Positions 2,629-20,676 of a stretch of DNA of 64,000 nucleotides are shown here, one piece after another. Origin of the DNA: Paracoccaceae bacterium. GTDB taxonomy: Bacteria > Pseudomonadota > Alphaproteobacteria > Rhodobacterales > Rhodobacteraceae. The stretch is taken from contig JAFIEO010000066.1 of NCBI GenBank assembly GCA_020832445.1, positions 1 to 64,000 on the forward strand. The letters are read 5' to 3'. A model generated the notes under the pieces. It was given only the letters and a program-made list of their open reading frames with translations, was not told where the DNA came from and searched no databases. The first letter of the stretch is position 1; each line of letters opens with the position of its first letter. The position numbers and the translations under genes were made by a program.

Positions 2629-2707
2629 TCGCCCCCCCCACGAAAAAGATCGCGAAATCACCGATCCGGTTGACGGGTCGGCCCTCCCTTTATTGTCAGG
2701 AGACACC

Positions 2708-5810: not shown

Positions 5811-6440
5811 ATGATCATTCTAAGCCACCGGGGGTTCTGGCGCATCCCTGCCGAAAAGAACACGTCGGAGGCATTTGTGCATTCCTTCGCGCAGGGGTTC
5901 GGCACCGAAACGGATTTGCGCGACCTGAACGGCACGCTTGTGGTGGCCCATGACCCGCCTGATGCCTGCGCCATCACCGCCGAGGTAATGTTTGAACTGC
6001 ACGCGCGGCATGATAGCAACCTGCCGCTTGCCCTGAACATAAAATGCGACGGGTTGCAGCCGTTGCTGGCCCCGCTTCTGGCGCGGTTTGCGCCGCGCGA
6101 TGCCTTTGTCTTTGACATGGCTGTTCCCGACATGCTGGGTTGGCTGCGCGCGGGCGTGCCGGTTTTTACCCGCCGTAGCGATATTGAACCCGACCCCGTT
6201 TTGCTGGCAGAGTCTGCCGGTGTCTGGCTGGACGGGTTTCAGTCCGATTGGTGGGACGCTGATGTGATCCGCCGTTATCTGGACGCCGGAAAACGGGTAT
6301 GCGTTGTCTCGCCCGAGTTGCACGGCCGCGCCTGCCGCCCTGTATGGGATGCACTGGCGGCCACGGACCTGCCACAGGCGGAGGGGCTGCTGTTATGCAC
6401 CGATTTTCCCGCTGACGCGAAGGAGTTGTTTGGCCTATGA
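5811..6440 (+). CDS. Glycerophosphodiester phosphodiesterase-like protein
   Basis: A 209-residue TIM-barrel-like protein with GDPD hallmarks: SHRGFWRIP near the N terminus, the ENT-like segment EKNTSEAF, the metal-site region ETDLRD, and VVAHDP. The family hydrolyses glycerophosphodiesters to glycerol 3-phosphate and an alcohol, using divalent metal. The protein is shorter than typical GDPDs (about 240-300 residues) and has no signal peptide, so it should act in the cytoplasm. It is the first gene of a long operon and overlaps the HAD gene by an ATGA. In this context it may act on a sugar-phosphodiester or a glycan precursor rather than a phospholipid; that is inference. Confidence 0.72.
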   Translation: MIILSHRGFWRIPAEKNTSEAFVHSFAQGFGTETDLRDLNGTLVVAHDPPDACAITAEVMFELHARHDSNLPLALNIKCDGLQPLLAPLLARFAPRDAFVFDMAVPDMLGWLRAGVPVFTRRSDIEPDPVLLAESAGVWLDGFQSDWWDADVIRRYLDAGKRVCVVSPELHGRACRPVWDALAATDLPQAEGLLLCTDFPADAKELFGL

Positions 6441-7069
6441 CCATTGAAGCTGTCGTTTTCGACATGGACGGGGTGCTGATTGATGCCAAGGACTGGCATT
6501 ATGAGGCGCTGAACCGCGCATTGGCGTTGTTTGGTTTTACCATCTCGCGCGCTGATCACCTGTCCACCTTTGACGGGCTGCCAACGCGGCGCAAGCTGGA
6601 AATGCTGACGCAGGAACGCGGCCTGCCGCGCGCGTTGCACGGGTTTCTGAACGACATGAAACAGCAATACACCACCGATCAGGTGCATCTGAAATGCCGG
6701 CCGCTTTTTGTGCATGAATTCGCGCTTTCGAACCTGAAGGCGCGGGGCTACAAGCTGGGGCTTGGGTCCAATTCTGTGCGGTCAAGCTGCGAATTGATGA
6801 TGCAAAAAAGCGCGCTTATGCCGTATCTGGATGTCATCGTCAGCAACGAGGATGTTGCGCGCGCGAAACCCGCACCAGATATCTACCTGAAAGCCTGTGA
6901 CGCGCTTGGTGTGTCCCCCGCGAATTGTCTGGTGGTCGAGGATAACCCCAACGGCATAAAAGCCGCCGAGGATGCGGGCTGCAAGCTGTTGGTGGTCAAT
7001 TCGGTGCATGATGTGCAGCTGGACCGGATTCTGGGCGCAATCGCCCGCGCCGAGGAGGTGGCCATATGA
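6437..7069 (+). CDS. HAD-superfamily phosphatase/phosphomutase-like (subclass IA)
   Basis: A 210-residue protein with the four HAD motifs: DMDGVLID (motif I, nucleophile Asp near residue 9), LGSNS (motif II), the Lys in RAKPAPD (motif III), and VEDNPNGIKAA (motif IV). An alpha-helical cap follows motif I, as in the beta-phosphoglucomutase/gph group. It overlaps both neighbours by 4 nt, so translation is probably coupled. A phosphatase or mutase step in making an activated sugar or polyol is likely, given the nucleotidyltransferases next door. The substrate cannot be read from sequence. Confidence 0.83.
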   Translation: MTIEAVVFDMDGVLIDAKDWHYEALNRALALFGFTISRADHLSTFDGLPTRRKLEMLTQERGLPRALHGFLNDMKQQYTTDQVHLKCRPLFVHEFALSNLKARGYKLGLGSNSVRSSCELMMQKSALMPYLDVIVSNEDVARAKPAPDIYLKACDALGVSPANCLVVEDNPNGIKAAEDAGCKLLVVNSVHDVQLDRILGAIARAEEVAI

Positions 7070-7806
7070 TCAATGTCCTTATTCCCATGGCCGGGGGCGA
7101 CAAGCTGTTTCGTGATGCGGGCTATCCTTTTGCCAAGCCGATGGTTGAAATCGCGGGCCGGTCGCTGGTTGAACATGCGTTCGACGGGTTGCGCGACATC
7201 CCGGATGCGCGCTTTATTTTCATCATCCGCAAGGAAGATGACCAGCGCTTTTATATGCGCGATGTGCTGGAACTGATGGTGCCGGGTTGCGTGGTCATCC
7301 GCGCCGATGGCGACACGGCAGGCGCGGCCTGCACTGCGCTTTTGGGGATTGATTACCTGCTGGGCGATGATGAATTGCTGATTGCGAATGCCGATCAGGT
7401 GATCAGGGCCGATCTGGCCGCTGTGATAGACGAGTTTCGCGCCGCCGGTCTGGATGGTGGCACCATCACATTCGATTCGGTGCATCCGCGCTGGTCCTTC
7501 GTCAAGACCGATGAAAACGGGCTGGTGATCGAAGCCGCCGAAAAACGCCCGATCAGCCGCCACGCCACCGCAGGGGTCTATTACTTCCGCCACAGCAAGG
7601 ATTATGTGGCCGCCGCGCAAGCCATGATCACCAAGGGCGCGCATGTGAACGGGCTGTATTTTGTGTGTCCCTGTTTCAACGAAATGATTCTGAATCAAAA
7701 ACGCATTGGCATCTGGCCGATTGACCGCGACGACTACATCTCGCTCGCGACGCCGCAAGCGGTCGAGGAATATGACCAGAACCTACGAAATTTGAAACGG
7801 GGCTAA
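7066..7806 (+). CDS. Sugar-phosphate nucleotidyltransferase-like protein (copy 1)
   Basis: A 246-residue NTP-transferase-fold protein. The N-terminal nucleotide-binding loop reads IPMAGGDKLFRDAGYPFAKP; the family form is PMAGxGxRFxxxGYxxPKP, so the usual Arg is replaced by Lys or Leu. The metal Asp lies in IANADQ. It is a paralogue of the gene at 8125: both share ANxDQ, a WSFV segment and a VNGxYxVxPxY/F region. Such enzymes join a sugar or alcohol phosphate to CTP, UTP or GTP. It sits between a HAD and a cupin gene in one operon. Whether the altered loop still binds NTP is uncertain. Confidence 0.75.
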   Translation: MINVLIPMAGGDKLFRDAGYPFAKPMVEIAGRSLVEHAFDGLRDIPDARFIFIIRKEDDQRFYMRDVLELMVPGCVVIRADGDTAGAACTALLGIDYLLGDDELLIANADQVIRADLAAVIDEFRAAGLDGGTITFDSVHPRWSFVKTDENGLVIEAAEKRPISRHATAGVYYFRHSKDYVAAAQAMITKGAHVNGLYFVCPCFNEMILNQKRIGIWPIDRDDYISLATPQAVEEYDQNLRNLKRG

Positions 7807-7810
7807 ACAT

Positions 7811-8131
7811 ATGCAGGTTTTCAAGCTGGACGATATGACCAAGGGCTGGTTTGTGGGCGATTTCGCGCCGGTGGCCTTGCGCACCAAGGACGCTGAAGTT
7901 GCCGTCAAACGCTACACCGCCGGCACGAAAGAGCCGCGCCATATGCACAAGATCGCCCCGGAAGTGACGCTAATTCTGGAAGGGAGCGCGCGGATGAATG
8001 ACCAGATTCACAGTGCAGGTGATATCGTGAAGATCGACCCCGGAGAGGCCACGGACTTTGAGGCCCTGACCGATGTCACCACGGTCGTGGTCAAGCTGCC
8101 CAGTGTCGCAGGGGACAAATACGAATGCTGA
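7811..8131 (+). CDS. Small cupin-fold protein
   Basis: A 106-residue single-domain cupin. The first cupin motif is seen in KEPRHMHKIAPEVTLILEG (His, His, Glu ligands) and the second in GDIVKIDPGEATDF. It starts 4 nt after the upstream nucleotidyltransferase and overlaps the next one by 7 nt. Lone cupins in nucleotide-sugar clusters are often isomerases, epimerases or small-molecule sensors. The metal ligands are only partly conserved in motif 2 (no His), so the exact role is open. Confidence 0.72.
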   Translation: MQVFKLDDMTKGWFVGDFAPVALRTKDAEVAVKRYTAGTKEPRHMHKIAPEVTLILEGSARMNDQIHSAGDIVKIDPGEATDFEALTDVTTVVVKLPSVAGDKYEC

Positions 8132-8895
8132 ATATCGTGGTGCCCATGGCAGGGCGCGGACAGCGCTTCATTGATGCGGGCTATACGCTGCCCAAACCGT
8201 TGATCGCGGTGCATGACGTGCCCATGATCCGGCTTGTCATTGCCAACCTGACGCCCGACTGCCCGCACAGGTTCCATTTTCTGTTGCAGCGCGAGCATGC
8301 GGAACGCTACCGGCTGGACGCCCTGTTGCGCGACTGGGCGCCGGGATGCGCCCTGACCCTGCTGGACGGTGTGACCGAAGGTGCGGCCTGTACCGTGCTT
8401 CTGGCGCGCGATGCAATTGACAATGACAACCCGCTGATGATTGCAAATTGCGATCAGTATATTGATGTGGACATCAACACCTATCTGGCCGCGCAACAGG
8501 GTGCGGACGGGCTGATTATGACGATGTGGGCGGATGATGCAAAATGGTCCTTCGTGCGCCGCAACGCTGATGGTCGCGTGACCGGCGTTGTCGAAAAGGA
8601 AGTGGTGTCGAATGAAGCGACAGTCGGCATTTATAATTTTGCACGCGGGCGCGATTTCGTGCGTGCCGCTGATGCCATGATTGCCGCTGATCTGCGCGTG
8701 AACGGCGAATTCTATGTCGCCCCCGCCTATGACCGCCTGATCGCCGAAGGGGGCAGGGTTGTCTGCCACAGCATTGGCGGTGTCGGATCGGGGATGTATG
8801 GCATCGGCACGCCCGCCGATCTGGAGGCGTTTCTGGCCTTGCCACTGTCGCGTCAGGCCGTCGCAGGCGTGTTGCCGTCCGGGGGCGCGCCATGA
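8125..8895 (+). CDS. Sugar-phosphate nucleotidyltransferase-like protein (copy 2)
   Basis: A 256-residue NTP-transferase-fold protein with a canonical loop VPMAGRGQRFIDAGYTLPKP and metal-binding ANCDQ. It is a paralogue of the gene at 7066. The two together suggest either two activated precursors or a heteromeric enzyme. It overlaps the cupin gene by 7 nt and the WavE-like gene by an ATGA. Expected reaction: NTP plus sugar or polyol phosphate to NDP-conjugate plus pyrophosphate, in the cytoplasm. The intact loop makes this the better candidate for activity of the pair. Confidence 0.8.
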   Translation: MLNIVVPMAGRGQRFIDAGYTLPKPLIAVHDVPMIRLVIANLTPDCPHRFHFLLQREHAERYRLDALLRDWAPGCALTLLDGVTEGAACTVLLARDAIDNDNPLMIANCDQYIDVDINTYLAAQQGADGLIMTMWADDAKWSFVRRNADGRVTGVVEKEVVSNEATVGIYNFARGRDFVRAADAMIAADLRVNGEFYVAPAYDRLIAEGGRVVCHSIGGVGSGMYGIGTPADLEAFLALPLSRQAVAGVLPSGGAP

Positions 8896-9989
8896 GTAAC
8901 GCTGCACCAAAGCCACCGCTTGGGCCAGAGCGTGGCGGCGACAGATCGCTGCGCGCGCGCCTGTTGCGACGTTTGCGGCGCTGGGTTATCGCGCAGGAAA
9001 ACGTGCATAGCGACGATTACACAACCTTGCATCACCGGCCCAAACGCGCAGACCAGATCGGCACATGGCCGGACCCGTCCATCGCGCACCCGCGCGCGGC
9101 CGTGGTCATGCAGGGCCCGCCCTTCATGGCCGATGATTTCACGCTGGAAACATTGCGCCTGTATACCCGCAGCATGCGCGACTGCCAGTTGATCCTGTCC
9201 ACATGGGACGACACGGACCCTGCGTTTCTGGCGGCGGCGCGCGATCTTGGGGTGACAGTGGTTCTTAGCCGCAAGCCCGATTATGCGGGGCTGTTCAATA
9301 TCAACATGCAACTGGTTTCCGCGGCGGCAGGGGTGGAACGCGCGGTGCAGGACGGGGCCGAATGGGTGATGAAAACCCGCACCGACCAGCGGCTATACGC
9401 GCCTGATGTGCTGCCGTTTCTGGTGGCGGTGGCGCAGGGGTTTGCGGTTGGCGGCGCGACTGCGCAACGCCACCGCATTATCGGTGTGGGGCACGGGTCG
9501 CTGAAATATGCCCCCTATCATGTGACCGACCAGACCGTTTTTGGCCATGCGGATGACATGCTGGCCTATTGGACACCCCCGTTGCGCATGGACCGCGCCC
9601 CCGCGCATTGGCCGGATGATCTGCCTTCGATCTTTACCAAAACGCCGATTGGCGAATTGTGCAGGCTGGGCGCGGCGGAATGCTATTTTGCCAGCCGGTT
9701 CTTGCAGCGCATGGGGCGCGACCTGGACTGGACACTTGCCGACAGCTGGGCGGCCTACCGTGACCATTTCGCGTTTGTCGATTATGCCGCGACCGATTTT
9801 TTCTGGGTAAAGACGCAGCTTCACACGCAGCGTGAAATGACGCAAAGCTATGATGCGGTGTCCAACCGCCATGAGATGGGGTTTCAGGACTGGATGCTGC
9901 TGTATTCCGGTCAGGTGCAGCCCAAGGATGCTACGCCGTTTGAACCAGTGCAACACCAGCTTTTCAATCAGGCTGTCGTGAAGCCCTGA
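8892..9989 (+). CDS. WavE-like lipopolysaccharide/capsule synthesis protein
   Basis: A 365-residue protein resembling the WavE family of LPS core biosynthesis. It has an N-terminal AVVMQGPPFMADDFTLETL segment, a STWDDTD motif, a KTRTDQRLY motif that could serve as the acidic metal/sugar-nucleotide site, and a later TDFFWVKTQ. WavE proteins are probably glycosyltransferases of the cell-surface polysaccharide. No membrane helix or signal peptide is seen. It closes the sugar-type half of the operon; the next gene starts after a 109-bp gap, the largest in the operon. Assignment is from motif memory, with moderate certainty on the activity. Confidence 0.68.
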   Translation: MSNAAPKPPLGPERGGDRSLRARLLRRLRRWVIAQENVHSDDYTTLHHRPKRADQIGTWPDPSIAHPRAAVVMQGPPFMADDFTLETLRLYTRSMRDCQLILSTWDDTDPAFLAAARDLGVTVVLSRKPDYAGLFNINMQLVSAAAGVERAVQDGAEWVMKTRTDQRLYAPDVLPFLVAVAQGFAVGGATAQRHRIIGVGHGSLKYAPYHVTDQTVFGHADDMLAYWTPPLRMDRAPAHWPDDLPSIFTKTPIGELCRLGAAECYFASRFLQRMGRDLDWTLADSWAAYRDHFAFVDYAATDFFWVKTQLHTQREMTQSYDAVSNRHEMGFQDWMLLYSGQVQPKDATPFEPVQHQLFNQAVVKP

Positions 9990-10030
9990 TACAGCAGCGC
10001 CTGTTTGCCGCCGATTGTTGCCATTTTGGA

Positions 10031-10048
10031 AATTTGGTGACACAAATT
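10031..10048. promoter_or_regulatory. Inverted repeat in the largest gap of the long operon
   Basis: AATTTG-gtgaca-CAAATT is a perfect 6-bp dyad 50 bp upstream of the HMG-CoA reductase start. It is the only sizeable gap inside the operon, so it may mark an internal operator or promoter separating the sugar-type and lipid-type halves. It could also be chance. Confidence 0.3.
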
Positions 10049-10098
10049 GTCGCCTATGCGTTTTTTGCACCGGTAATTTCAACCAATGGTATGCGACA

Positions 10099-11364
10099 AT
10101 GACTATTCCTTCCCATGTCAAGGACATGCTGAATAGAATTCGGGCCCGTTTTTTTGACTCCCCGCTGCATGAACGCATGCTGCCAAGTGATGCGCAGTTC
10201 ACCACGCTGCGCCCCGTTCGCAAGGCCACACAGGCCTCTGTCGCGAAATACTGGTCCCGTCTTGCCAACACCACCGGCCCTGCCGATCGCGATGCAATCG
10301 CCGACCCGCTGACAATGGCCATGCCAGAGCAGTTTAACGCCAATATAGAAAATTTCATCGGGACCGTGAAACTGCCTGTCGGGATAATTGGCCCTTTGCG
10401 GATCAACGGGTTGAATGCGCACGGTGATTACCATGTGCCAATGGCCACCACCGAAGCCGCGCTTGTCGCGTCCTATGCGCGCGGGGCCTATGCCGCAACG
10501 AAATCAGGGGGCATCAGCACGGCAATCCTGTATGAAGGGGTCATCCGCACACCGGCCTTTGTGCTGGAAAACCTGCTGAATGCGGGGCTGTTTGTCGAAT
10601 GGGTCGTGACCGAGGTTGAGACGCTGAAGGCGGCGGCAGAATCCACCACACGGCACGGCAAACTGGTGTCGGTGGAGCCGATGATCGACAATAACGTGGT
10701 GTTCCTGATCTGCCGCTATACAACCGGCGATGCGGCGGGGCAGAACATGGTGACAATCGCCACGAATGCCCTGTGCGATGATATTGTGGCGCGCTGCCCC
10801 GTTGCCCTGAAGGCGTGGTATATCGAAGGCAATTTTTCCGGTGACAAGAAAGCATCATTTCTGGGGCTGGTCACGGGACGCGGGCGCAAGGTCAGTGCGT
10901 CGGTCACGCTGAAGGCAGATGTGGTGGAACGCACCTTGGGGACACGTGTTCAGGACATGCTGGAATACGGCCAGGTGGCCAATCTTGGCGCGCATCTGTC
11001 GGGGCAGTTGGGGGCGCAGGCGCATTATGCCAACGGGCTGGCGGCGCTCTATATCGCAACCGGTCAGGATGCCGCCTGCGTTGCCGAAAGCGCCATGGGC
11101 ATCACCCGTATGGAAGCGCGCGGCGATGACCTGTTTTGCAGTGTGACCATGCCCAACATTCTTGTCGGGTCGGTCGGCGGGGGGACATCGCTGCCCAGCC
11201 AGTCGGCGGGGCTGAACATCCTTGGGCTGAAGGGCGCGGGCCATGGTGCGGCGCTGGCCGAAGTGGTGGCCGCAACCTGCCTGTGCGGCGAAATCTCGAT
11301 TGTGGCGGCGATTGCGGCGGGGCATTTCACGCGCGCCCATGAAAATCTGGCGCGGCATAGATGA
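10099..11364 (+). CDS. Hydroxymethylglutaryl-CoA reductase, class I-like
   Basis: A 421-residue protein with HMG-CoA reductase signatures: ENFIGTVKLPVGIIGPL (84-100), the catalytic Glu119 in MATTEAAL, GDAAGQNMVTIAT (210-222), catalytic Lys in SGDKKAS (248-253), Asp324 in TGQDAAC, a glycine-rich SVGGGTSLPSQ, and His residues at 409-420 where the acid-base His is expected. The family reduces HMG-CoA to mevalonate with two NAD(P)H. Class I features outnumber class II ones. ATG 10099 is chosen because the conserved sequence starts soon after; it has no good ribosome-binding site and a TTG at 10015 is possible. It overlaps the UbiA gene by ATGA. No mevalonate kinase or diphosphomevalonate decarboxylase is present. 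Confidence 0.88.
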   Translation: MTIPSHVKDMLNRIRARFFDSPLHERMLPSDAQFTTLRPVRKATQASVAKYWSRLANTTGPADRDAIADPLTMAMPEQFNANIENFIGTVKLPVGIIGPLRINGLNAHGDYHVPMATTEAALVASYARGAYAATKSGGISTAILYEGVIRTPAFVLENLLNAGLFVEWVVTEVETLKAAAESTTRHGKLVSVEPMIDNNVVFLICRYTTGDAAGQNMVTIATNALCDDIVARCPVALKAWYIEGNFSGDKKASFLGLVTGRGRKVSASVTLKADVVERTLGTRVQDMLEYGQVANLGAHLSGQLGAQAHYANGLAALYIATGQDAACVAESAMGITRMEARGDDLFCSVTMPNILVGSVGGGTSLPSQSAGLNILGLKGAGHGAALAEVVAATCLCGEISIVAAIAAGHFTRAHENLARHR

Positions 11365-12266
11365 CACCTGCGGCGCTGTGGACCTATCAGAAAGAACGCT
11401 TTCCGCTGGCCAGAACAGTGCCCTTGCTGGCGGTTTTTTCCGCAGCCAGCATCAGTGTCTCGGCCGAGTTGGCGGGGCGGCCCCTGCCGGGCTGGGGGGC
11501 GTTTGTGGCAGGGTTCGTTGTGGCAATGCTGCTGTTTTTCCAGATGCGGGTTTGCGATGAATACAAGGATCTGGAAGATGACAAACGCTACCGCCCCGAC
11601 CGCCCCATCCCGCGCGGGCTGATTTCGCTTCGCGCAGTGCTGGCACTGGGGCTGGTGTCCTTGCCGGTGACGGCCTTTGCTGCATGGGCATGGCACCCGC
11701 CGCTATTATGGCTGCTTGGCGTTGTCTGGCTGTGGCTGCTGGCCATGACCGCAGAATTTGGCGCGCCAAGGTGGCTGAAGGCGCGGCCCGTGCTGTATCT
11801 GGCCAGTCATATGGCGATCATGCCGCTGATTGACTTGTTGTTGACCGCAATGGAATGGCTGCCCGCTGGCACGCCCGCATTCTGGCTGGGGCTGTTTCTG
11901 GCGCTGTCGTTTGTGAATGGCTGCGTGCTGGAAATCGGGCGCAAACTTTGGGCACCGCAAAACGAGATTGACGGGGTCGACACTTATTCCGGCCTGTGGG
12001 GGCCAAGAAAGGCCGCATTGATCTGGGCTGCCTGTGTCGTGGTGTCATGGGGCTTGCTGGTCGGTGTGGGGGCGGCAACTGGTGTGGTCTGGGTTGCGGT
12101 ATCGCTGGGCGGGGCGGGCGCGTTTCTGTGCCTTCGGGCGGCGGCGGCTTATGTGGCAGCGCCCACCGCAGCGGCGCAAAAGCGCCTTGATACGGTTGCA
12201 GGGCTTTGGGTCTTTGCCTGCTATGCGCTGGCCGGTTTTGCGCCCCTGATTGTAAGGATGGTCTGA
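11361..12266 (+). CDS. UbiA-family membrane prenyltransferase
   Basis: A 301-residue, strongly hydrophobic protein with about eight to nine predicted membrane segments. The first Asp-rich motif is CDEYKDLEDDKRYRPDRP (65-82) and a second acidic site is NEIDGVDTYSG (201-211). UbiA enzymes transfer a prenyl group from a polyprenyl diphosphate to an aromatic, glycerol-phosphate or other acceptor at the membrane. The second site is diverged from the DxxxD of ubiquinone enzymes, so the acceptor may be unusual. It lies between HMG-CoA reductase (ATGA overlap) and a dikinase (TGATG overlap). Confidence 0.83.
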   Translation: MTPAALWTYQKERFPLARTVPLLAVFSAASISVSAELAGRPLPGWGAFVAGFVVAMLLFFQMRVCDEYKDLEDDKRYRPDRPIPRGLISLRAVLALGLVSLPVTAFAAWAWHPPLLWLLGVVWLWLLAMTAEFGAPRWLKARPVLYLASHMAIMPLIDLLLTAMEWLPAGTPAFWLGLFLALSFVNGCVLEIGRKLWAPQNEIDGVDTYSGLWGPRKAALIWAACVVVSWGLLVGVGAATGVVWVAVSLGGAGAFLCLRAAAAYVAAPTAAAQKRLDTVAGLWVFACYALAGFAPLIVRMV

Positions 12267-14692
12267 TGGGGTTTATTGTTCCGCAGGATCAGGCGCGCAA
12301 CGTGGAAGATGTCGGCGGCAAGGCGGCGGCGCTGTCGCGTCTGGCTGAAAACGGGTTTGCACCGCCTGCGTTTTTTGTCATTCGCGCCGACGCGTTCGAC
12401 ACTGGCACGCCGCTTCAGGGCTTGCCCGACGCGCTGGCGCATCTTGGCGCGGGGCCGTTTGCCGTGCGCAGTTCGGCGCGGCAGGAAGATGGCGCCGCGC
12501 ACAGCCACGCAGGACAGTTTGACACGCTGCTGAATGTGCCTGCGGGCGGGGTCGAGGATGCGGCGCGACAGGTCTGGCAATCGGGCTTTTCCGACACAGT
12601 GGCCACTTACCGCGCGCTGAAGTCACAAACCGGGGCTGAAGGGCCAGCGGTTATTGTCCAGCGCATGATTGATGCGCGCGCGGCGGGTGTGGCGTTTTCC
12701 GCCGACCCCGTGACAGGACGGCGCGACCGCGTTGTGATCTCGGCGATTGCCGGATTGGGCGAGCGTCTGGTTTCAGGCGAAGAAGACGGCGAAGACTGGA
12801 CAATCGGCGCGACCGCGAACTGTGCCACAGTGCCTGCCGTTCTGAACGCGGCGCAGGCCGAAGCGATTGCCGCATTGGCGCGGCGCGCAGAGGATGTGTT
12901 TGGCGCGCCGCAGGATATTGAATGGGCGATAGATGATGACGGGCTGCATATCTTGCAATCGCGCCCCATCACCACGCCGCTGCTGCCACCGCCCAACCCC
13001 GATACCGCACTGACAATATTTGATAATTCCAATATTGTCGAAAGCTATCCGGGTATGGTCAGCCCGCTGACCTATTCCTTTGCGGTTCATGTCTATGCCC
13101 GCGTCTACCGTGCCTTCGTGGCCTTGCTGGGGGTGCCCGACCGCACAATCGCCGCGCAATCTGCCGTGTTTGGCAATATGCTGGGCCGTGTTGACGGGCG
13201 GGTTTATTACAATCTGGTTAACTGGTATCGGGCGCTGGCGCTGTTGCCCGGTTTTTCGCTGAACAGGGCGTATATGGAAACCATGATGGGGGTGGACACG
13301 CCCATGCCCCGCGATGTGACCGACAGCATTGGCCCACCACCTGCCACAGGGGCCGCGCGCGTTTTCGAATACCTGCGGCTGGGGCGCGCGGGCGCAGGGT
13401 TGGTGTGGCAGGCGATGATGCTGCCGCGCACGCGCCGCCGGTTTTATGCGCGCCTGAATACCGCGCTGAACAGCGGCTTTGATGTGACGCGCGCCGGGCC
13501 AACAGCACTTGCGGCGGAATACCGCAAGATCGAAAGCACCTTGCTGGATCGTTGGGATGCGCCGCTGGTCAATGATTTTCTGTGCATGATTGCGTTCGGG
13601 GCCTCGCGCAACCTTTTGGAAAAGTGGCTGGGGCCGGATGGTCTGGCCCTGCATAACGATGTGATGATCGGGCAGGGCGACATTATTTCGGCAGAACCCG
13701 CGCAGCGCATCATGAAAATGGGACAGATGGCCCGCGCCGCCGGTCTGGATGCTGCGCTGATGGCGGACGGGATGGCCGGCCTTGACCCCCATCCCGACCT
13801 GCGCCGACAGGTCGAGAGCTATCTTGATAAATTCGGCGATCGCTGCACAGAAGAGCTGAAACTTGAAAGCCTGACACTGCGCGATGACCCGTCCAGCCTG
13901 CTTGCCGCGATTGTGGCCAGCGCGCAACGCGGCGCACATGATGCGCACAAGGCCAAAGACCCCGACTGGCGCGCGCTATTTCCCAATCCGTTCAAACGCA
14001 TGATTGCAAAGGGCCTGATTTCATGGACCAAAAATCGCGTGCGCGACCGCGAAAACCTGCGGTTTGAGCGCACGCGCATCTTCGGCTATGCGCGCCGTGT
14101 GTTTCTGGGACTGGGCCGTGAATTTGCCGCGCGCGGGTTGCTGTGCGGCCCGCGCGACGTGTTTTACCTGACCACGTCAGAAGTGCTTGGCGCGGTCGAA
14201 GGGTATGGGCTGTCGGGCGATCTGAAATCGCTGGTCAGCTTGCGCAAGGCCGAAGATGCGGCGGCAGCAAACCGCCCCGACCCGCCCGAACGGATTGAAT
14301 TGCGCGGCCCTGCCATTGCGCCCGTCTGGGCCAATGCGCCTGCCCTGCAAGACCAGTCCGCGCGCCGCAGTGCAACCGGCTGCTCGGCAGGGCGGGTGAC
14401 AGCGGTAGCCCGCGTGATCCGCGACCCGCGCACGCAATCGCTGGGCGCGGGCGAAATACTTGTGGCGCGTCATACTGATCCGGGCTGGATTGCCGTTTTC
14501 TCGAACGCGTCGGCCATTGTTGTCGAGCGCGGATCGCTGTTGTCACATTCGGCCATTGTGGCGCGCGAATTGGGCATTCCTTGCGTGGTGGGGCTGAAGG
14601 GGGCGACGCAATGGGTTGCAGATGGCGAAACCCTGACCGTTGACGGCGCAACCGGCGAGGTGGAGAGGCATATTGACGAATTCCGAGATTGA
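12266..14692 (+). CDS. PEP-synthase/rifampin-phosphotransferase-like dikinase
   Basis: An 808-residue protein. The N-terminal 260 residues are a PPDK-type ATP-grasp domain (GGKAAALSRL, FAVRSSARQEDG, GVAFSADPVTG, DIEWAID, LQSRPIT). A long middle domain of about 450 residues matches nothing I recognise. The C terminus is a swivelling phosphohistidine domain with LLSHSAIVARELGIP, His761 being the likely phospho-acceptor. There is no C-terminal PEP/pyruvate barrel. That order (ATP, substrate, His) is that of rifampin phosphotransferase, not of PEP synthase, so it probably phosphorylates some hydroxyl compound made in this operon. ATG 12266 overlaps the UbiA stop codon; an upstream in-frame start at 12206 is less likely. 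Confidence 0.83.
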   Translation: MGFIVPQDQARNVEDVGGKAAALSRLAENGFAPPAFFVIRADAFDTGTPLQGLPDALAHLGAGPFAVRSSARQEDGAAHSHAGQFDTLLNVPAGGVEDAARQVWQSGFSDTVATYRALKSQTGAEGPAVIVQRMIDARAAGVAFSADPVTGRRDRVVISAIAGLGERLVSGEEDGEDWTIGATANCATVPAVLNAAQAEAIAALARRAEDVFGAPQDIEWAIDDDGLHILQSRPITTPLLPPPNPDTALTIFDNSNIVESYPGMVSPLTYSFAVHVYARVYRAFVALLGVPDRTIAAQSAVFGNMLGRVDGRVYYNLVNWYRALALLPGFSLNRAYMETMMGVDTPMPRDVTDSIGPPPATGAARVFEYLRLGRAGAGLVWQAMMLPRTRRRFYARLNTALNSGFDVTRAGPTALAAEYRKIESTLLDRWDAPLVNDFLCMIAFGASRNLLEKWLGPDGLALHNDVMIGQGDIISAEPAQRIMKMGQMARAAGLDAALMADGMAGLDPHPDLRRQVESYLDKFGDRCTEELKLESLTLRDDPSSLLAAIVASAQRGAHDAHKAKDPDWRALFPNPFKRMIAKGLISWTKNRVRDRENLRFERTRIFGYARRVFLGLGREFAARGLLCGPRDVFYLTTSEVLGAVEGYGLSGDLKSLVSLRKAEDAAAANRPDPPERIELRGPAIAPVWANAPALQDQSARRSATGCSAGRVTAVARVIRDPRTQSLGAGEILVARHTDPGWIAVFSNASAIVVERGSLLSHSAIVARELGIPCVVGLKGATQWVADGETLTVDGATGEVERHIDEFRD

Positions 14693-15773
14693 AGCGAAAG
14701 CCGCCTTTGACCACATCCGCTATGCCCAGTTATGGGAAGATGCGGATATCCTGACGGCGGCAATGGGCGATTGCAGCGGGCGAACGCTGGTGTCGATCTG
14801 CGCGGCGGGGGATAATGCACTGGCAATGCTGGTGCTGGACCCCGCCAAAATTGTGGTGGTCGACCTGTCGCCTGCGCAGATCGCCTGCCTGAAGCTGCGG
14901 ATCGCGGCCTATTCGACCCTGACCCATGCGGAATTTCTGGAACTGATGGGCGCGCGTGCGTCCATGCAGCGCAAGGCACTGCTGGCGCGTGTCGTGGCCG
15001 CGCTTGACCCTGAAACACAGGCATTCTGGAACGCACAGGCCACGGATGTCGCGCGTTTCGGGGCTGGCGGGGTGGGCAAGTTCGAACGCTATTTCCGTAT
15101 ATTCCGAACGTGGTTTTTGCCGCTCGTGCATTCCCGCGCGACGCGTGACGCCATATTCGTGCCGCGCAACCGGCAGGGGCGTCAGGACTTCTTTGACACG
15201 CGGTTCAACACATGGCGCTGGCGGGTGTTGCTGAATGTCTTTTTCTCGCGCTTTGTCATGGGCCGGATGGGGCGGGACAAGGCGTTTTTTGACCATGTTG
15301 ATGGCAGTCCCGCGCAGCATGTGGCGCGGCGCATCCATCACGCAGCGGCGCAAACCGACCCGTCGGAAAACCCCTATCTGCACTGGATCATCAAGGGCAC
15401 GCATGGCGCGGCCCTGCCAATGGCGTGGCGCGCGGAGAATTTTGACGTGATCCGCGACCGCTGCGCCCGCATTGAAATCCGCCCCGGTTCGCTGGAGGCA
15501 TTTATCAAAACCGGCGAATTGGCGCATGGGTTCAACCTGTCGGATATTTTCGAATATATGTCCCCGCCCGTTTTTGCGCAGGTGTATGACAGCATTCTGG
15601 GGGCCGCAGCCCCCGGTGCGCGGCTGGTCTACTGGAACATGATGGCCCCGCGCCGCGTGCCTGCGCACCTGTCCGCACGCGTGACGCGCCTGCGCGCGCT
15701 GGAGGATGACCTGAAATCGCGTGACAAGGCGTTCTTCTATTCGGATTTCGTGATCGAGGAAGTTGTCGGGTGA
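14673..15773 (+). CDS. DUF3419/BtaA-like S-adenosylmethionine:lipid aminocarboxypropyl transferase
   Basis: About 366 residues. The N-terminal HIRYAQLWEDADI and the SAM-binding stretch SICAAGDNALAML...VVVDLSPAQ match the DUF3419 family, whose characterised member BtaA transfers the 3-amino-3-carboxypropyl group of SAM to diacylglycerol in betaine-lipid synthesis. No BtaB-type methyltransferase is next to it, so the product may stop at a homoserine-type ether or involve another acceptor. I prefer a TTG start at 14673 because GGAGAGG sits 4 nt upstream; another TTG at 14640 is possible. It overlaps the dikinase gene by 20 nt and the kinase-like gene by GTGA. Confidence 0.75.
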   Translation: MTNSEIEAKAAFDHIRYAQLWEDADILTAAMGDCSGRTLVSICAAGDNALAMLVLDPAKIVVVDLSPAQIACLKLRIAAYSTLTHAEFLELMGARASMQRKALLARVVAALDPETQAFWNAQATDVARFGAGGVGKFERYFRIFRTWFLPLVHSRATRDAIFVPRNRQGRQDFFDTRFNTWRWRVLLNVFFSRFVMGRMGRDKAFFDHVDGSPAQHVARRIHHAAAQTDPSENPYLHWIIKGTHGAALPMAWRAENFDVIRDRCARIEIRPGSLEAFIKTGELAHGFNLSDIFEYMSPPVFAQVYDSILGAAAPGARLVYWNMMAPRRVPAHLSARVTRLRALEDDLKSRDKAFFYSDFVIEEVVG

Positions 15774-17089
15774 GTATGGCTGCGCAACTGGTCATCGCGT
15801 TCGGGTCGGTTGCGGCCCTTTTGGGGTTGATGGCACTGGTGCGCCGCCTGCCCTTCAGCGCCGAAGTGAAACGCAAGCTGGTGCATGTTGGCACGGGTAT
15901 CTATGCGATGGGGTTGCCGTGGCTTTTCCCTGATCGCTGGCCTGTTTACATGATTGTCGCACTGACACTGGTGATGATGGTTGCGCTGCGCCTGCCGCAG
16001 ATTTCGGGGCGGCTGGGCGACGCGGTGCACAGTGTCGAGCGCCGGTCCTACGGGGATTTCCTGCTGGCCATTTCGGTGGGGCTTTGTTTCTTTTTCGCAG
16101 ACGGGGTGGCGCTGTTTTATGTGCTGCCAATCGCGGTCCTGACGCTGGCCGATGCGGCGGCGGCACTGGCGGGAACCGCCTATGGCACGCGCCGATTCAA
16201 GGTGGAACAGGGCGTCAAAAGTGTCGAAGGCACAGTGGTGTTTTTTGTCATCACGCTTCTGGTGGCGCTGATTTGCCTGATGTTCCTGTCGGACCTGCCG
16301 CCCCTGAACATTTTGACCCTTGCCCTGCTGGTCGCCGGTTTCGGCGCATTGGTCGAGGCCCAAAGCTGGCGGGGGTTCGACAACCTGTTTCTGCCGCTGG
16401 GGTTGCTGGTCTTTCTGGAGGTTCACAGCAACAGCACCCTGTTTGAGCTGCTGCCCATTGCCGTGCTGTTCGTGTTGGCAATCATTGCGTCGCGCATCAT
16501 CGGCCCGCGTTGTGGCCTGTCGACCCATGCCGCGCGTGTCTATGTCGTGGCGATGTTTCTGATACTGGCGTCAGTTGAATTGCAAAACGCGATACTGCCC
16601 GCGCTGGTGCTTGTGGCCTATCCCTGGGCCAGTGCGCGATCCCCCGGTGGCGATGATTTTGGCGATCTGGACATGGTTGCAGGGCTGGCGTTGTTCAGTT
16701 TCGGCTGGCTGGCGCTTGGCAATGCTGTCGGGTGGAACGCGGTCCAGTTTTATGGCCTGACGGCGATGGGGCTGGTCATGGGGTTAGGCACGCTGGCGTT
16801 GCGGCGCAATCTGGTCTGGGTGCCGGTAATCGCGGCGGCGCTGCTGGCGCTCCGCCAGATTGTGACATGGCTGAACCCGCCGCATAGTTTATGGGCGGAA
16901 CCGTTGCTGGTGCTGGCCTGCCTGTGTCTGGCCCTAAGCGCTGCGGCCAGTGCGGCGCTGCCTGACATGTTTTTCAGGCAGCGGGTGTTGAAGCTGACAG
17001 TGTTGTCCATGATCCTGCCGCTGGCCTATTATACCCTTGCGGTCATAGATCAGGGCGGCACACCCCCACCAGCCGGAGGAAGCCTGTGA
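15770..17089 (+). CDS. Phytol/dolichol-kinase-like integral membrane protein with C-terminal extension
   Basis: A 439-residue multi-span membrane protein. Residues 30-210 resemble the CTP-dependent polyprenol/phytol kinase family: KRKLVHVGTGIYAM, RRSYGDFLL, LADAAAALAGTAYGTRRF, and EQGVKSVEGT. The family phosphorylates long-chain alcohols such as phytol or dolichol using CTP. The usual length is about 200-300 residues; here some 200 extra residues with five or six membrane segments follow, of unknown role. GTG 15770 overlaps the upstream stop (GTGA) with GAGGAAG upstream; ATG 15776 is the alternative. With UbiA and HMG-CoA reductase it points to isoprenoid-alcohol chemistry. Confidence 0.75.
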   Translation: MSMAAQLVIAFGSVAALLGLMALVRRLPFSAEVKRKLVHVGTGIYAMGLPWLFPDRWPVYMIVALTLVMMVALRLPQISGRLGDAVHSVERRSYGDFLLAISVGLCFFFADGVALFYVLPIAVLTLADAAAALAGTAYGTRRFKVEQGVKSVEGTVVFFVITLLVALICLMFLSDLPPLNILTLALLVAGFGALVEAQSWRGFDNLFLPLGLLVFLEVHSNSTLFELLPIAVLFVLAIIASRIIGPRCGLSTHAARVYVVAMFLILASVELQNAILPALVLVAYPWASARSPGGDDFGDLDMVAGLALFSFGWLALGNAVGWNAVQFYGLTAMGLVMGLGTLALRRNLVWVPVIAAALLALRQIVTWLNPPHSLWAEPLLVLACLCLALSAAASAALPDMFFRQRVLKLTVLSMILPLAYYTLAVIDQGGTPPPAGGSL

Positions 17090-17931
17090 CGATTGAGACA
17101 CTGAAAACCGATAGCGCGTCCCTGACCCTTCATCTGAACGGGCCGGATTGGGACGGTGCGTGTGCCGCGACGCTTGGCAATGTGTCGTTCAAGACGCCAC
17201 AGGCGGGCACGGATTTGTTGCAACAGGCGCTGGCGCGCGTGCGGGATGCGGGGTTCGACCGTGTGTTGGGGCCAATGGCAGGCGACACATGGCACAGTTA
17301 CCGTTTTGTCAGCGAAACTGACGGCACGCCCGCCTTTTTGATGGAACCGGCCAACCGCCCGCATGAGCCGTTGATTTTTGCCACCGCCGGTTTCCAGCCA
17401 GTGGCGCGCTATTTTTCGGCGCGGATGCCCTTGGACATATGCGACCCCGCGCCATTGCCCGCCCCCGCTGGTTTCACCATCGAGGCATGGGACGGCCACG
17501 ACCCGGACGCCATGCTGCGAGAGGTGTTTGCCCTGTCGTCAGTGGCATTTGCGGGTAACGCGTTTTACACGCCTATCCATGAATCCGCGTTCCTTGAAAT
17601 GTATAAACCCGTTCTTCCCATGCTAAAGCCCGCATTGATCTTTTTCGCGCGGCGGCCAGACGGGGCGTTGGCGGGCTTTTTGTTTGCAATCCCAAACTAT
17701 GCCGAAGGGCTGGGCACGAAAACCGTCATCCTGAAAACCTATGCCAGTCTTATTCCCGGTGCGGGGCGGCATATGGTGCATGCCTGTCATGTTGCCGCCC
17801 TTGCGATGGGCTACAAGACAATGATCCATGCGCTGATCCATGACGACAACCGTTCTGCCGCGCGCAGCCGTCAGGAAGGCGGGCAGGTGTTTCGCCGTTA
17901 TGAATTGCTTGGGCTGAAATGGGATGTCTGA
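17086..17931 (+). CDS. GNAT-like N-acyltransferase domain protein
   Basis: A 281-residue soluble protein that reads as a two-part GNAT-like fold: an N-terminal half ending in GDTWHSYRF and a C-terminal half with LAGFLFAIPNY, a possible acyl-CoA-binding strand-loop around ILKTYASLIPGAGRHMVHA, and HDDNRSAARSRQEGGQVFRRY. The latter resembles the terminal GNAT segment with conserved Asn-Ser and Tyr. The likely role is transfer of an acyl group to an amine, perhaps the amino group added by the DUF3419 enzyme two genes upstream. Start GTG 17086 overlaps the previous stop; ATG-TCTGA overlap with the ligase gene. Assignment is moderate. Confidence 0.6.
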   Translation: MTIETLKTDSASLTLHLNGPDWDGACAATLGNVSFKTPQAGTDLLQQALARVRDAGFDRVLGPMAGDTWHSYRFVSETDGTPAFLMEPANRPHEPLIFATAGFQPVARYFSARMPLDICDPAPLPAPAGFTIEAWDGHDPDAMLREVFALSSVAFAGNAFYTPIHESAFLEMYKPVLPMLKPALIFFARRPDGALAGFLFAIPNYAEGLGTKTVILKTYASLIPGAGRHMVHACHVAALAMGYKTMIHALIHDDNRSAARSRQEGGQVFRRYELLGLKWDV

Positions 17932-19345
17932 CCTGCTGCGCGACTTTGCCGCCGCAGTCGAACGGCATCCCGACAGGGTGGCGCTGGTCGATGGCAAGGG
18001 GCGCGCGGTAACGTTTGCCGAACTGGATGCGCGCCGCGTGCGTTTTGCAGGGGCGTGGCACCGCAAGGGCATTCGTGCGGGCGACAAGGTGTTGGTGGCC
18101 ATGTCTGTGGATGCAGATCTTTATGCCGCGCTGGCCGCGCTGTGGACACTTGGCGCAACTGCCGTTCTGCCAGAACCGGCATTGGGGCTTGCGGGGCTGC
18201 GCCATGCCGCGCACGTCACCAGACCACGCGCCTTTTGCAGTTCTGGCCTGTATGGGCTGCTGCGTTGGGTGTTGCCCCAACTATGGGGGCTGCGCCATTT
18301 GCGCCCGAACGGGCAGGCCGCGCCCCTGCCCGCGATGCCCCCCCCTGCGGGCGCGGATATTGCGCTTATCTCATTCACATCGGGCACGACGGGGGCGCCG
18401 AAGGCCATTCCGCGCAGCCATGATTTCCTTGCAGCACAGCATAGCGCCATCGCGCCGCTGCTCCGCAGCGCGCAGGCCGAACGCGATCTGGTAGCGTTTC
18501 CCGTGTTCGTGCTGATCAATATTGCCAGCGGGCAGACATCGGTGTTGCCGAACTGGAAGATGTCGCGCCTTGATGCGCTGGACCCCGCGCAATTGCGCGA
18601 CTGGATGCACAAGAACCGCGTCACCCGCGCACTTGTGCCCCCATCCCTGTGCGAAATGTTGGTGCAGGCAGGCGCAGATGCGCCGCTGCATACGGTCTTT
18701 ACCGGCGGTGGCCCTGTTTTCCCCGAACTGATTGACCGGATGCACGCGGTCCGGCCTGATTTGCGCGTGTGTTGTGTCTATGGCTCGACCGAGGCGGAGC
18801 CGATTGCCCATCTGGACGCCACTGATATAACACCTGATGACCGCGCGGCGATGGACGGGGGGCAGGGGCTTCTGGTCGGCCACCCTGTTGCAGGGATAGA
18901 CTTGCGCATTCACAAGGATGAAATTCAGGTTGCCGGTGCGCATGTGAACCGCGGCTATCTTGACCCCGCCCATGATGCGCAAAACAAGATCCGTGATGGC
19001 GCAATAGTCTGGCACCGAACAGGCGATGCAGGCCGTCTGGATGCGCAAGGCCGGCTTTGGTTGCTGGGGCGTATGGGCACGGATGTGAAAATCGCGGGTC
19101 GCATGTGCTATCCGTTCGCGGTCGAGGGTGCTGCGCGGCAATGGCCCGGCGTGCGCCAATGCGCCCTGATGGAAGCCCATGACACTGCCTGCCTTGTGAT
19201 CGAAGGGGACAGCGCACAGATGCCAGTCTGGCAAACCCGCGCCACTGCGTTGGGGGGCGCGGGAGTCGTTCATGTGGCCAGCATGCCAATGGATAAACGC
19301 CACCGGTCCAAGATTGACCGCAACGCCCTGCGCGCAATGCTGTAG
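17924..19345 (+). CDS. AMP-forming acyl-CoA synthetase/ligase
   Basis: A 473-residue ANL-superfamily enzyme that activates a carboxylic acid as acyl-AMP. Core motifs are present: SFTSGTTGAPKAIPR (150-164, phosphate loop), VYGSTEAEP (A5), HRTGDAG (A7), LGRMGTDVKIAGR (A8), and the C-terminal catalytic Lys463 in DKRHRSKID. It is a little shorter than typical acyl-CoA synthetases (500-550). It overlaps the GNAT gene by 8 nt and ends the operon; no clear terminator is seen in the 25 bp before the convergent TAXI gene. A ligase and acyltransferase pair suggests a fatty or branched acyl group is put on the product. Confidence 0.86.
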   Translation: MSDLLRDFAAAVERHPDRVALVDGKGRAVTFAELDARRVRFAGAWHRKGIRAGDKVLVAMSVDADLYAALAALWTLGATAVLPEPALGLAGLRHAAHVTRPRAFCSSGLYGLLRWVLPQLWGLRHLRPNGQAAPLPAMPPPAGADIALISFTSGTTGAPKAIPRSHDFLAAQHSAIAPLLRSAQAERDLVAFPVFVLINIASGQTSVLPNWKMSRLDALDPAQLRDWMHKNRVTRALVPPSLCEMLVQAGADAPLHTVFTGGGPVFPELIDRMHAVRPDLRVCCVYGSTEAEPIAHLDATDITPDDRAAMDGGQGLLVGHPVAGIDLRIHKDEIQVAGAHVNRGYLDPAHDAQNKIRDGAIVWHRTGDAGRLDAQGRLWLLGRMGTDVKIAGRMCYPFAVEGAARQWPGVRQCALMEAHDTACLVIEGDSAQMPVWQTRATALGGAGVVHVASMPMDKRHRSKIDRNALRAML

Positions 19346-19370: not shown

Positions 19371-20345
19371 CTATCCCAGCAGCCCCACTTCCTGGAAATA
19401 TGATTTCGCGCCTGCATGCATTTTGGCAGAAAGGGCTTCATTTACCATTTCATTGCGGTCCAGCCCGTTCAGGGCGGAATGCAGCCCCCTGAACTGGTCC
19501 AGATTTTCAAAGATGGTCCTGGCCAGTTGATATGTGACCATTTCAGGCACGTCCGCCGATGCGACAAGCGTGGCGCGCATGCCAAAGGTTGGTGTGTCAT
19601 CTTCCGCGCCGCGATACATGCCACCGGCGATGGTGGCCATGCTGTAATATTCATGCTTGTCCACCAAAGCGCGGATTGCGGGATTGTCGACCTTGACCAG
19701 AACCGTGTCGCAGGCGGTGGCGTCATGGATGGCAATCGACGGGTGACCGACGGCATAGACAATGGCATCAACGTCGTTGTCGCACAGCGCCTGGGCTTGT
19801 CGCGCGGGCGACAATTCGGTGACCTGCGCGAAACTGTCCAGCCCCCAGCCCATGGCTTGCATCACAACTTCCATCGTGGCCCGCTGGCCTGATCCGGGAT
19901 TGCCAATATTGACCCGCTTGCCTGCCAGATCGTCAAATACCCTGATGCCGCTATCGGCGCGCGCAATCACCGTGAAGGGTTCGGGATGCAGCGAAAACAC
20001 CGCGCGCAGCCCGTCAAACGCGCCATCGTGTTCAAAACCGCCGCTGCCGTTATAGGCATGGAATTGCAGATCGGATTGCACTACGCCAAATTCCAGCCCG
20101 TCAAAGCGTATTGCTTGCAGATTGTGCATCGAACCACCGGTCGGCTGCACCATGCACCTGATGCCATGCGCGGCACGATCCTGGTTAAGCAACCGGCAAA
20201 TGGCGTTGCTGGCAGGGAAATACACCCCCGTCACGCCACCTGTGCCGATGGTGATCGATGTTTCATGCGCGGGCGCAGCCGTGCCAAGAAACGCGCATGA
20301 CGCTGAAATGAATATTGCCCGCGTGAAAATGATCCCCTCCGTCAC
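19371..20345 (-). CDS. TAXI-family TRAP transporter substrate-binding protein (orphan)
   Basis: A 324-residue secreted protein with a signal peptide (hydrophobic segment IFISASCAFLGTAAPAHA-like, residues 11-27) and TAXI hallmarks: ITIGTGGVTGVYFPASNAIC, a QPTGGSMHNLQAI segment, GVVQSD, and VNIGNPGSGQR. TAXI receptors deliver substrates such as dicarboxylates or glutamate to a fused TRAP permease. No permease gene is adjacent, so it either serves a permease elsewhere or is regulatory. It is convergent with the long operon. Only a GTG start at 20345 fits; a GGAGGGG lies inside the predicted N terminus, so the start is uncertain. Confidence 0.85.
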   Translation of the reverse strand: MTEGIIFTRAIFISASCAFLGTAAPAHETSITIGTGGVTGVYFPASNAICRLLNQDRAAHGIRCMVQPTGGSMHNLQAIRFDGLEFGVVQSDLQFHAYNGSGGFEHDGAFDGLRAVFSLHPEPFTVIARADSGIRVFDDLAGKRVNIGNPGSGQRATMEVVMQAMGWGLDSFAQVTELSPARQAQALCDNDVDAIVYAVGHPSIAIHDATACDTVLVKVDNPAIRALVDKHEYYSMATIAGGMYRGAEDDTPTFGMRATLVASADVPEMVTYQLARTIFENLDQFRGLHSALNGLDRNEMVNEALSAKMHAGAKSYFQEVGLLG

Positions 20346-20676
20346 CGATAAAATGCATGCCGCTTGGTCACACGCTCGCCTGATTCCGGTTTGTGTTCAA
20401 GTGTTTCATCAAGCGGGGGGTGAGTTGCGCGCCTGCAAATGCACGGGCGCAGGCAGATTGGGCGTTTGTGTGACTTTCGCACATGTATCGCGCCGCGCTG
20501 GCGGGTGCGGGCATAATAACGCGGGAAATGCGGCCCCTTTCTACGCTAGGCTAGTGGCCGGTAAAGTGGCCAAAAATAAGGAAATCAATAGGCTTCATAT
20601 TACATCAAGTATATGATAGTGTTTAATTTATATAGAATTTGAAAGCGGCCAAAGAAGCGGCCAAGGTGCAGGACAA
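20346..20676. other. Intergenic region with repeats upstream of the Fic gene
   Basis: About 330 bp between the divergent TAXI and Fic genes. The decamer AAGYGGCCAA occurs at 20564-20573, 20643-20652 and 20655-20664, and a related TAGTGGCCG lies near 20552. The last two copies abut the Fic start. Between them is an AT-rich stretch (20580-20640). The repeats could bind a regulator of the Fic gene; nothing else is recognised. Confidence 0.4.

Follow-up and report, generated by a model that had tools for sequence, protein, structure and literature searches.

A conserved seven-gene cassette of Rhodobacteraceae and Bacteroidota carries an apparently repurposed HMG-CoA reductase

3-Hydroxy-3-methylglutaryl coenzyme A (HMG-CoA) reductase (HMGR) is widely seen as the committed enzyme of the mevalonate pathway, dedicated to one substrate. 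Salvage of phytol and other prenols relies on a prenol kinase, a prenyl-phosphate kinase, and a UbiA transferase. Relatives of HMGR and of UbiA transferases are encoded in a stretch of 64,000 nucleotides from a Paracoccaceae bacterium of the Rhodobacteraceae (assembly GCA_020832445.1, contig JAFIEO010000066.1, positions 1 to 64,000; hereafter the window), where 13 plus-strand open reading frames (ORFs), g1 to g13, occupy positions 5811–19345 (Table 1). A sequence-only reading had described this co-directional run with overlaps at 10 of its 12 junctions; both features are confirmed, and Pfam backs most of its gene labels. The last seven genes encode, in order, an HMGR homolog, a UbiA-type transferase, a dikinase, a DUF3419 protein, a kinase-like membrane protein, a GNAT acyltransferase, and an AMP ligase. 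Our leading view, at about even chances, is that g7–g13 form a self-contained cassette whose undescribed product resembles an amino-lipid and is made without recourse to the mevalonate pathway or to the glycan genes g1–g6. Its HMGR seems to have changed its job.

The cassette is patchily distributed, conserved in order and strand, and present in two phyla. tblastn searches with the 13 proteins covered 36 other Rhodobacteraceae loci found through their HMGR, some of them closely related (L039 and L040 represent one species). The order and strand of g7–g13 were the same in 32 of these, a conservation of the lipid-type block that the sequence-only reading had proposed to look for across genomes. 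The remaining four (L032, L034, L053, and L063) stop at contig ends, and L032 has an additional, unrelated AMP-ligase match upstream (24% identity). HMGR matches occurred in 32 of 295 sampled family genomes. Sixteen of them, the source genome included, show at least 66% identity and are of the cassette type; the non-cassette matches comprise G005, G264, and G056 at 36–40% identity and 13 weak ones. Upstream sequence exceeds 1.2 kb in 31 of the Rhodobacteraceae loci, and 14 of these (L037, L039, L040, L041, L043, L046, L047, L048, L050, L051, L053, L056, L060, and L071) have a divergent Sulfotransfer_3 and cytochrome P450 pair immediately before the cassette HMGR. Thalassococcus halodurans and Yoonia maritima are among the carriers of the sulfotransferase, and cultured strains with the cassette include Roseicyclus mahoneyensis DSM 16097 and Loktanella salsilacus DSM 16199. 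Pairwise distances correlate among all seven proteins over 24 Rhodobacteraceae loci (r 0.73–0.91), a comparison made without any gene from outside the cassette as control.

A named scan returned 26 loci, 25 from Rhodobacteraceae and one from a Cytophagales metagenome-assembled genome, which holds four cassette genes on two contigs (HMGR-UbiA at L057 and GNAT-ligase at L104). A GNAT profile run over 395 genomes of its phylum, Bacteroidota, gave 40 matches, nine of them at E ≤3.6e-27. All seven genes lay within the fetched 12–20 kb for seven of these nine strongest matches, the other two being the Cytophagales genome and G1119. The order HMGR-UbiA-dikinase-DUF3419-kinase-like is kept in 7/7 of these cassettes, and the GNAT-ligase pair precedes it in four and follows it in three. 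Flanks were fetched for four of the 31 weaker matches: L142 and L144 proved to be HMGR-free relatives, and L146 and L147 showed no cassette gene in the fetched flanks. The latter two are longer GNATs outside the cassette that the g12 profile matches weakly; the neighbors of L146 are presumably epimerase-like and CDP-alcohol-phosphotransferase-like genes. In the class sample of 385 genomes, the source genome alone gave a strong GNAT match. Of nine further, weak matches, that in G476 belongs to a related cluster, and no cassette gene lay within 3.2–3.5 kb of the remaining eight.

The HMGR homolog g7 shares its domain and its catalytic Glu, Lys, Asp, and His with class I HMGRs of the mevalonate pathway. 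In alignments to 1dq8 and 6hr7, residues E121, K252, D326, and H416 are invariant in all 21 aligned cassette HMGRs and correspond to human Glu559, Lys691, Asp767, and His866, the full catalytic set of a mevalonate HMGR. The cassette enzymes differ at two other positions. The equivalent of human Ser684 is Glu in 21/21 (codon 10825–10827 in g7), and Lys735, a mark of the mevalonate-pathway enzymes, is replaced by Ala, Ser, or Gly in 18/18 (Ala in g7, codon 10978–10980). Human, plant, and archaeal enzymes retain both residues, as do the non-cassette Rhodobacteraceae HMGRs L019 and L160, whose neighbors appear, from their sequence motifs, to be later mevalonate-pathway genes. Lys735 forms a salt bridge with the terminal carboxylate of HMG, as stated in PMC9500038. 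The human lysine falls in an insert of the HMMER alignment to the cassette profile and opposite Ala/Ser/Gly in the MAFFT alignment, so no lysine is aligned either way; the six control rows for this position include L151, of another class, and two empty rows, L159 and L161. Judged from these residues, the cassette HMGR appears to be a repurposed enzyme. A solitary HMGR in G005 (L148/L068) likewise has no HMG-carboxylate lysine, keeps Ser at 684, and is possibly a second repurposed HMGR lineage in Rhodobacteraceae.

Isoprenoid genes of the hosts were searched in 14 of the 16 cassette-type family genomes. DXR of the methylerythritol phosphate pathway was present in 14/14, and mevalonate kinase gave no match at E 0.001 in 13/14, with a sub-cut-off match in G007. 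All nine Bacteroidota genomes gave sub-cut-off mevalonate-kinase matches. In two of these, G1087 and G1181, DXR gave no match, and a further HMGR outside the cassette, judged by eye to be of class II, lies next to a gene resembling IDI-2, so the cassette HMGR is an extra copy there. The sequence-only reading had envisaged a prenyl- or aminocarboxypropyl-modified lipid. Its isoprenoid part is weakened because the HMGR has no HMG-carboxylate lysine and 13/14 hosts gave no mevalonate-kinase match; the aminocarboxypropyl step is plausible. A UbiA gene elsewhere in the host genome (G000:C18:287234-287962, L175) is presumably chlorophyll-synthase-like, suggesting that the host is a phototroph.

Three relatives without HMGR were found, all of which keep UbiA-like, dikinase, DUF3419, and GNAT genes. 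L142 (G1163) combines a NAD_binding_4 reductase and DAGK_cat with UbiA, dikinase, GNAT, phosphatidylserine (PS) decarboxylase, and DUF3419, with no g11. L144 (G1379) has NAD_binding_4, dikinase, DUF3419, g11-like, UbiA-like, GNAT, and PS decarboxylase genes; its UbiA-like label comes from alignment alone, as Pfam gave no match at E 0.01. The alphaproteobacterial L143 (G476) combines DUF3419, UbiA, GNAT, and dikinase genes with a PS-decarboxylase-like frame recognized by eye from its unscanned translation; no reductase was seen on its 11 kb. The NAD_binding_4 reductase is present in two of the three. These variants suggest a core of UbiA, dikinase, DUF3419, and GNAT, joined by a lipid-kinase-like gene in 2/3, around which the reductase is exchangeable. 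It is mainly this apparent exchangeability that leads us to read the cassette HMGR as a thioester reductase.

The remaining enzymes resemble known families to varying degrees. The UbiA domain of g8 scores 45.8 bits in PF01040 (cut-off 34.2), and its first acidic motif is present in 32/32 Rhodobacteraceae and 7/7 Bacteroidota cassettes. The second motif reads [ED]xxRKx6E in 39/39, in place of the Asp-rich diphosphate motif, and its stretch has no conserved Asp; Asp is held there in nine of ten usable UbiA controls (two of 12 were dropped for a misread frame). The dikinase g9 shares ATP-binding and swinging-His domains, including the catalytic motif, with rifampin phosphotransferase and phosphoenolpyruvate (PEP) synthase. 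Its closest solved chains include 5fbs and 5hv2, which we take to be rifampin phosphotransferases. The ATP-binding motif is present in 39/39 cassettes and the swinging-His pattern in 37/39, with a one-residue variant in L065 and an interruption by a stop in L045; among the HMGR-free relatives, L143 has the pattern and L142 and L144 have variants. Unlike the known systems, g9 sits in a fixed lipid-type neighborhood, and its score stays under the cut-off in each of the 25 NCBIfam models listed.

The DUF3419/BtaA-like protein g10 (PF11899, 189.7 bits, cut-off 28.2) is the sole such match in its genome and presumably transfers a 3-amino-3-carboxypropyl group from S-adenosylmethionine (SAM). Compared with DUF3419 proteins from 18 loci of a phylum sample, its identity is 24–33%. 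Sequence profiles of the PDB gave no useful match for g10 or g12 and no match for g11, the C-terminal half of which is missing in some relatives. For g12 a GNAT fold was found; the fold lists for g11 and g12 are a re-reading of a Foldseek ranking, so families missing from them are not thereby excluded. The ligase g13 has PRK09274 as its best NCBIfam group, at 272 bits against a cut-off of 478, and falls short of the OleC family cut-offs, with 144.9 bits where 900 are required and 141.1 bits where 850 are. No OleA-, OleB-, or OleD-like gene is among the seven.

These assignments can be arranged as a route of seven steps. The ligase g13 would activate a carboxylic acid as acyl-AMP or acyl-CoA, and the repurposed HMGR would reduce the thioester to an alcohol. 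This alcohol would be phosphorylated by g11 and activated by g9 through addition or exchange of a further phosphate, after which g8 may move the activated chain onto an acceptor. g10 would then add the 3-amino-3-carboxypropyl group from SAM, and g12 would N-acylate the new amine. Where present, the divergent sulfotransferase and P450 may decorate the product. The scheme shares the logic of phytol and prenol salvage, with an alcohol, two phosphorylations, and a UbiA transferase; the cassette differs in that its second kinase would be PEP-synthase/Rph-like and its alcohol would come from a reductase and an AMP ligase. A more specific version, which we regard as unlikely, is a non-isoprenoid counterpart of prenylation. 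An ordinary acyl chain, once activated by g13, would be reduced by g7 to an allylic or fatty alcohol, phosphorylated by g11 and g9, and transferred by g8 to give an ether-type lipid with an aminocarboxypropyl head from g10 and an N-acyl chain from g12. The HMGR-free relatives might then follow the same logic with other reductases and kinases, together with a decarboxylase. A literature search, in which subscription journals were mostly outside scope, found no described pathway or paper on this gene set, in agreement with the earlier impression that it matches no nameable pathway. We regard the cassette as a biosynthetic gene cluster of the lipid type in which one enzyme possibly has a new role.

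Several points weigh against this reading. We infer its seven steps, one per gene, from the enzyme families. The altered HMGR pocket could still take HMG-CoA, and no HMGR is known to reduce a fatty acyl-CoA. Lysine loss alone does not define the cassette, because L148 shows the same loss outside it. The mevalonate-kinase model cut-off was passed in 0/24 genomes, and the test is imperfectly sensitive because the DXR-less G1087 and G1181 also gave only sub-cut-off matches. With its atypical second motif, g8 may not use a diphosphate. The call of g11 as a CTP-dependent lipid kinase like SEC59, DGK1, or VTE5 is weak, as no lipid-kinase or CTP-transferase model of Pfam or NCBIfam matched any of 14 members. 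In addition, a strong GNAT match in G1119 stands alone within 19 kb.

Other explanations account for parts of the same evidence. HMGR might still make mevalonate, using HMG-CoA from leucine breakdown; g13 would then activate the mevalonate and g12 would pass it on to an amine, in the manner of SidI and SidF in fungal siderophore synthesis. The catalytic residues are intact, all 32 Rhodobacteraceae and seven Bacteroidota complete cassettes combine HMGR with an AMP ligase and a GNAT, and no competing mevalonate-kinase match was seen in 13/14 hosts. Yet both HMG-contact positions are altered in the cassette HMGRs examined, and the UbiA protein, the dikinase, and the membrane kinase would be left unexplained; we consider this use of mevalonate as a building block rather improbable. 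A similarly low probability is given to a betaine-lipid-like route, in which g10 would have the role of BtaA, with diacylglycerol as its substrate, and the remaining genes would tailor the head group or provide a diradylglycerol of an unusual kind. The DUF3419 match (E 1.2e-55) is the only one in the genome, and the cassette shares with BtaA/BtaB synthesis a DUF3419 protein with predicted aminocarboxypropyl transfer from SAM to a lipid. The six other enzymes are foreign to that pathway, however, and no BtaB-type methyltransferase was found among the seven genes, the range searched (flanks and the rest of the genome lay outside it). Synthesis of diacylglyceryltrimethylhomoserine needs no HMGR, UbiA, or AMP ligase. 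The adjacency of HMGR and UbiA in the same 39 cassettes could also point to a prenylated natural product for which HMGR raises isoprenoid supply through mevalonate. With DXR in every Rhodobacteraceae host searched, mevalonate-kinase matches wanting in most of them, changed HMG-binding residues, and a separate HMGR kept in G1087 and G1181, ordinary mevalonate supply is weakened as a role for this HMGR, and such a product appears very unlikely.

The sequence-only reading had taken all 13 genes to work together, on a lipid that anchors or decorates a surface glycan. Tight packing and the same arrangement on a plasmid of Roseinatronobacter sp. S2 are in keeping with one pathway for a lipid-anchored glycan. 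That plasmid, with 93–99.5% protein identity, is the only other place where the full run was seen, and it was the sole match in plasmid searches with g12, g9 (E 1e-100), and g11. On it, g1 adjoins a replication-initiation gene and the HMGR spans the record start. The flanks fetched for the 36 other Rhodobacteraceae cassette loci all lacked g1–g6; these covered 1 to 10,000 bases of upstream sequence (more than 8 kb in 26 loci). On plasmid NZ_CP065364.1 of Ruegeria sp. SCSIO 43209, a six-gene set in g1–g6 order lies inside a polysaccharide locus: hypothetical, HAD, a g3-like gene annotated as glycosyltransferase family 2 (GT2), small hypothetical, GT2-annotated, and WavE. A flippase and an O-antigen ligase accompany that copy, whereas the window's copy stands beside the lipid cassette; g7–g13 were not seen within the 18.7 kb of the locus examined. 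The g3 proteins are 64% identical, and the likeness of the other genes, also to a shortened form of the HAD-nucleotidyltransferase-cupin-nucleotidyltransferase-WavE set on an Azospirillum plasmid, was judged by gene order and size. g1 matched in 2/198 sampled family genomes, the source genome included; the second carrier, G147 (73% complete), falls outside the 16 family genomes of the cassette type. Because g1–g6 are absent from all 36 flanks and complete in Ruegeria without g7–g13, the two halves are read as neighbors. g1–g6 look like a separate polysaccharide module, the coupling to a glycan is unsupported, and a single 13-gene pathway, to which we attach hardly any probability, is rejected.

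The sole sizeable gap of the run separates the two modules. It most likely has the length given in Table 1 because the HMGR start Met at 10099 is shared by homologs (12 of 13 aligned from Rhodobacteraceae; L066 is a cut sequence). The boundary between the modules was also considered as the site of a terminator or a promoter, and both were rejected: the weak, terminator-like hairpin at 10036–10054 is one observed against 0.4 (sd 0.9) expected, and the promoter-like site, located inside g7, is a single match against 0.2 expected.

Table 1. Genes and intermodule gap of the 13-gene run (window positions)
Feature	Position	Strand	Basis
g1, GDPD-like protein, opens glycan module	5811..6440	+	motif by recall; no Pfam match
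g2, HAD phosphatase, beta-phosphoglucomutase-like	6437..7069	+	PF13419 E 2.6e-33
g3, sugar nucleotidyltransferase-like	7066..7806	+	PF00483 E 5.4e-7
g4, small cupin-like protein	7811..8131	+	PF07883 E 0.0018, under cut-off
g5, second sugar nucleotidyltransferase-like	8125..8895	+	PF00483 E 7.7e-9
g6, WavE-like lipopolysaccharide/polysaccharide enzyme, closes glycan module	8892..9989	+	PF07507 E 2.4e-10
Intermodule gap, 109 bp	9990..10098	+	between g6 and g7
g7, HMG-CoA-reductase homolog, class I type	10099..11364	+	PF00368 E 6.5e-108; start set from homologs
g8, UbiA-superfamily membrane transferase, unusual second motif ExxRKx6E	11361..12266	+	PF01040 E 6e-12
g9, PEP-synthase/rifampin-phosphotransferase-like dikinase, ATP-binding and swinging-His domains	12266..14692	+	PF01326, PF00391
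g10, DUF3419/BtaA-like	14673..15773	+	PF11899 E 1.2e-55
g11, polytopic membrane protein, proposed CTP-dependent lipid kinase	15770..17089	+	
g12, tandem-GNAT N-acyltransferase	17086..17931	+	
g13, AMP-forming acyl ligase, PRK09274/OleC-related group	17924..19345	+	PF00501 E 9.7e-41

Downstream of the run, a TAXI/NMT1-like protein and the ORF at 21806–23581 (window 19371–23581) are 97% identical to genes beside the cassette on the S2 plasmid; the replication-initiation gene upstream of g1 on that plasmid has no equivalent shown in the window. Upstream, a 756-aa ORF with AAA ATPase and peptidase M41 domains (2693–4963) is presumably FtsH-like. A D12-class adenine DNA methyltransferase (229–1035) lies within a stretch of lower GC content (0.50 over positions 1–2000, against 0.54–0.66 elsewhere).

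If the proposed reading of g7–g13 is true, HMGR would have taken on a new function in a conserved branch without the HMG-recognizing lysine, fixed in a cassette of two phyla. The cassette would likewise indicate that these bacteria make a class of lipid not yet on record, whose chemistry the cassette's variants (another reductase, another kinase, an added decarboxylase, or the sulfotransferase and P450 pair) may help to read.

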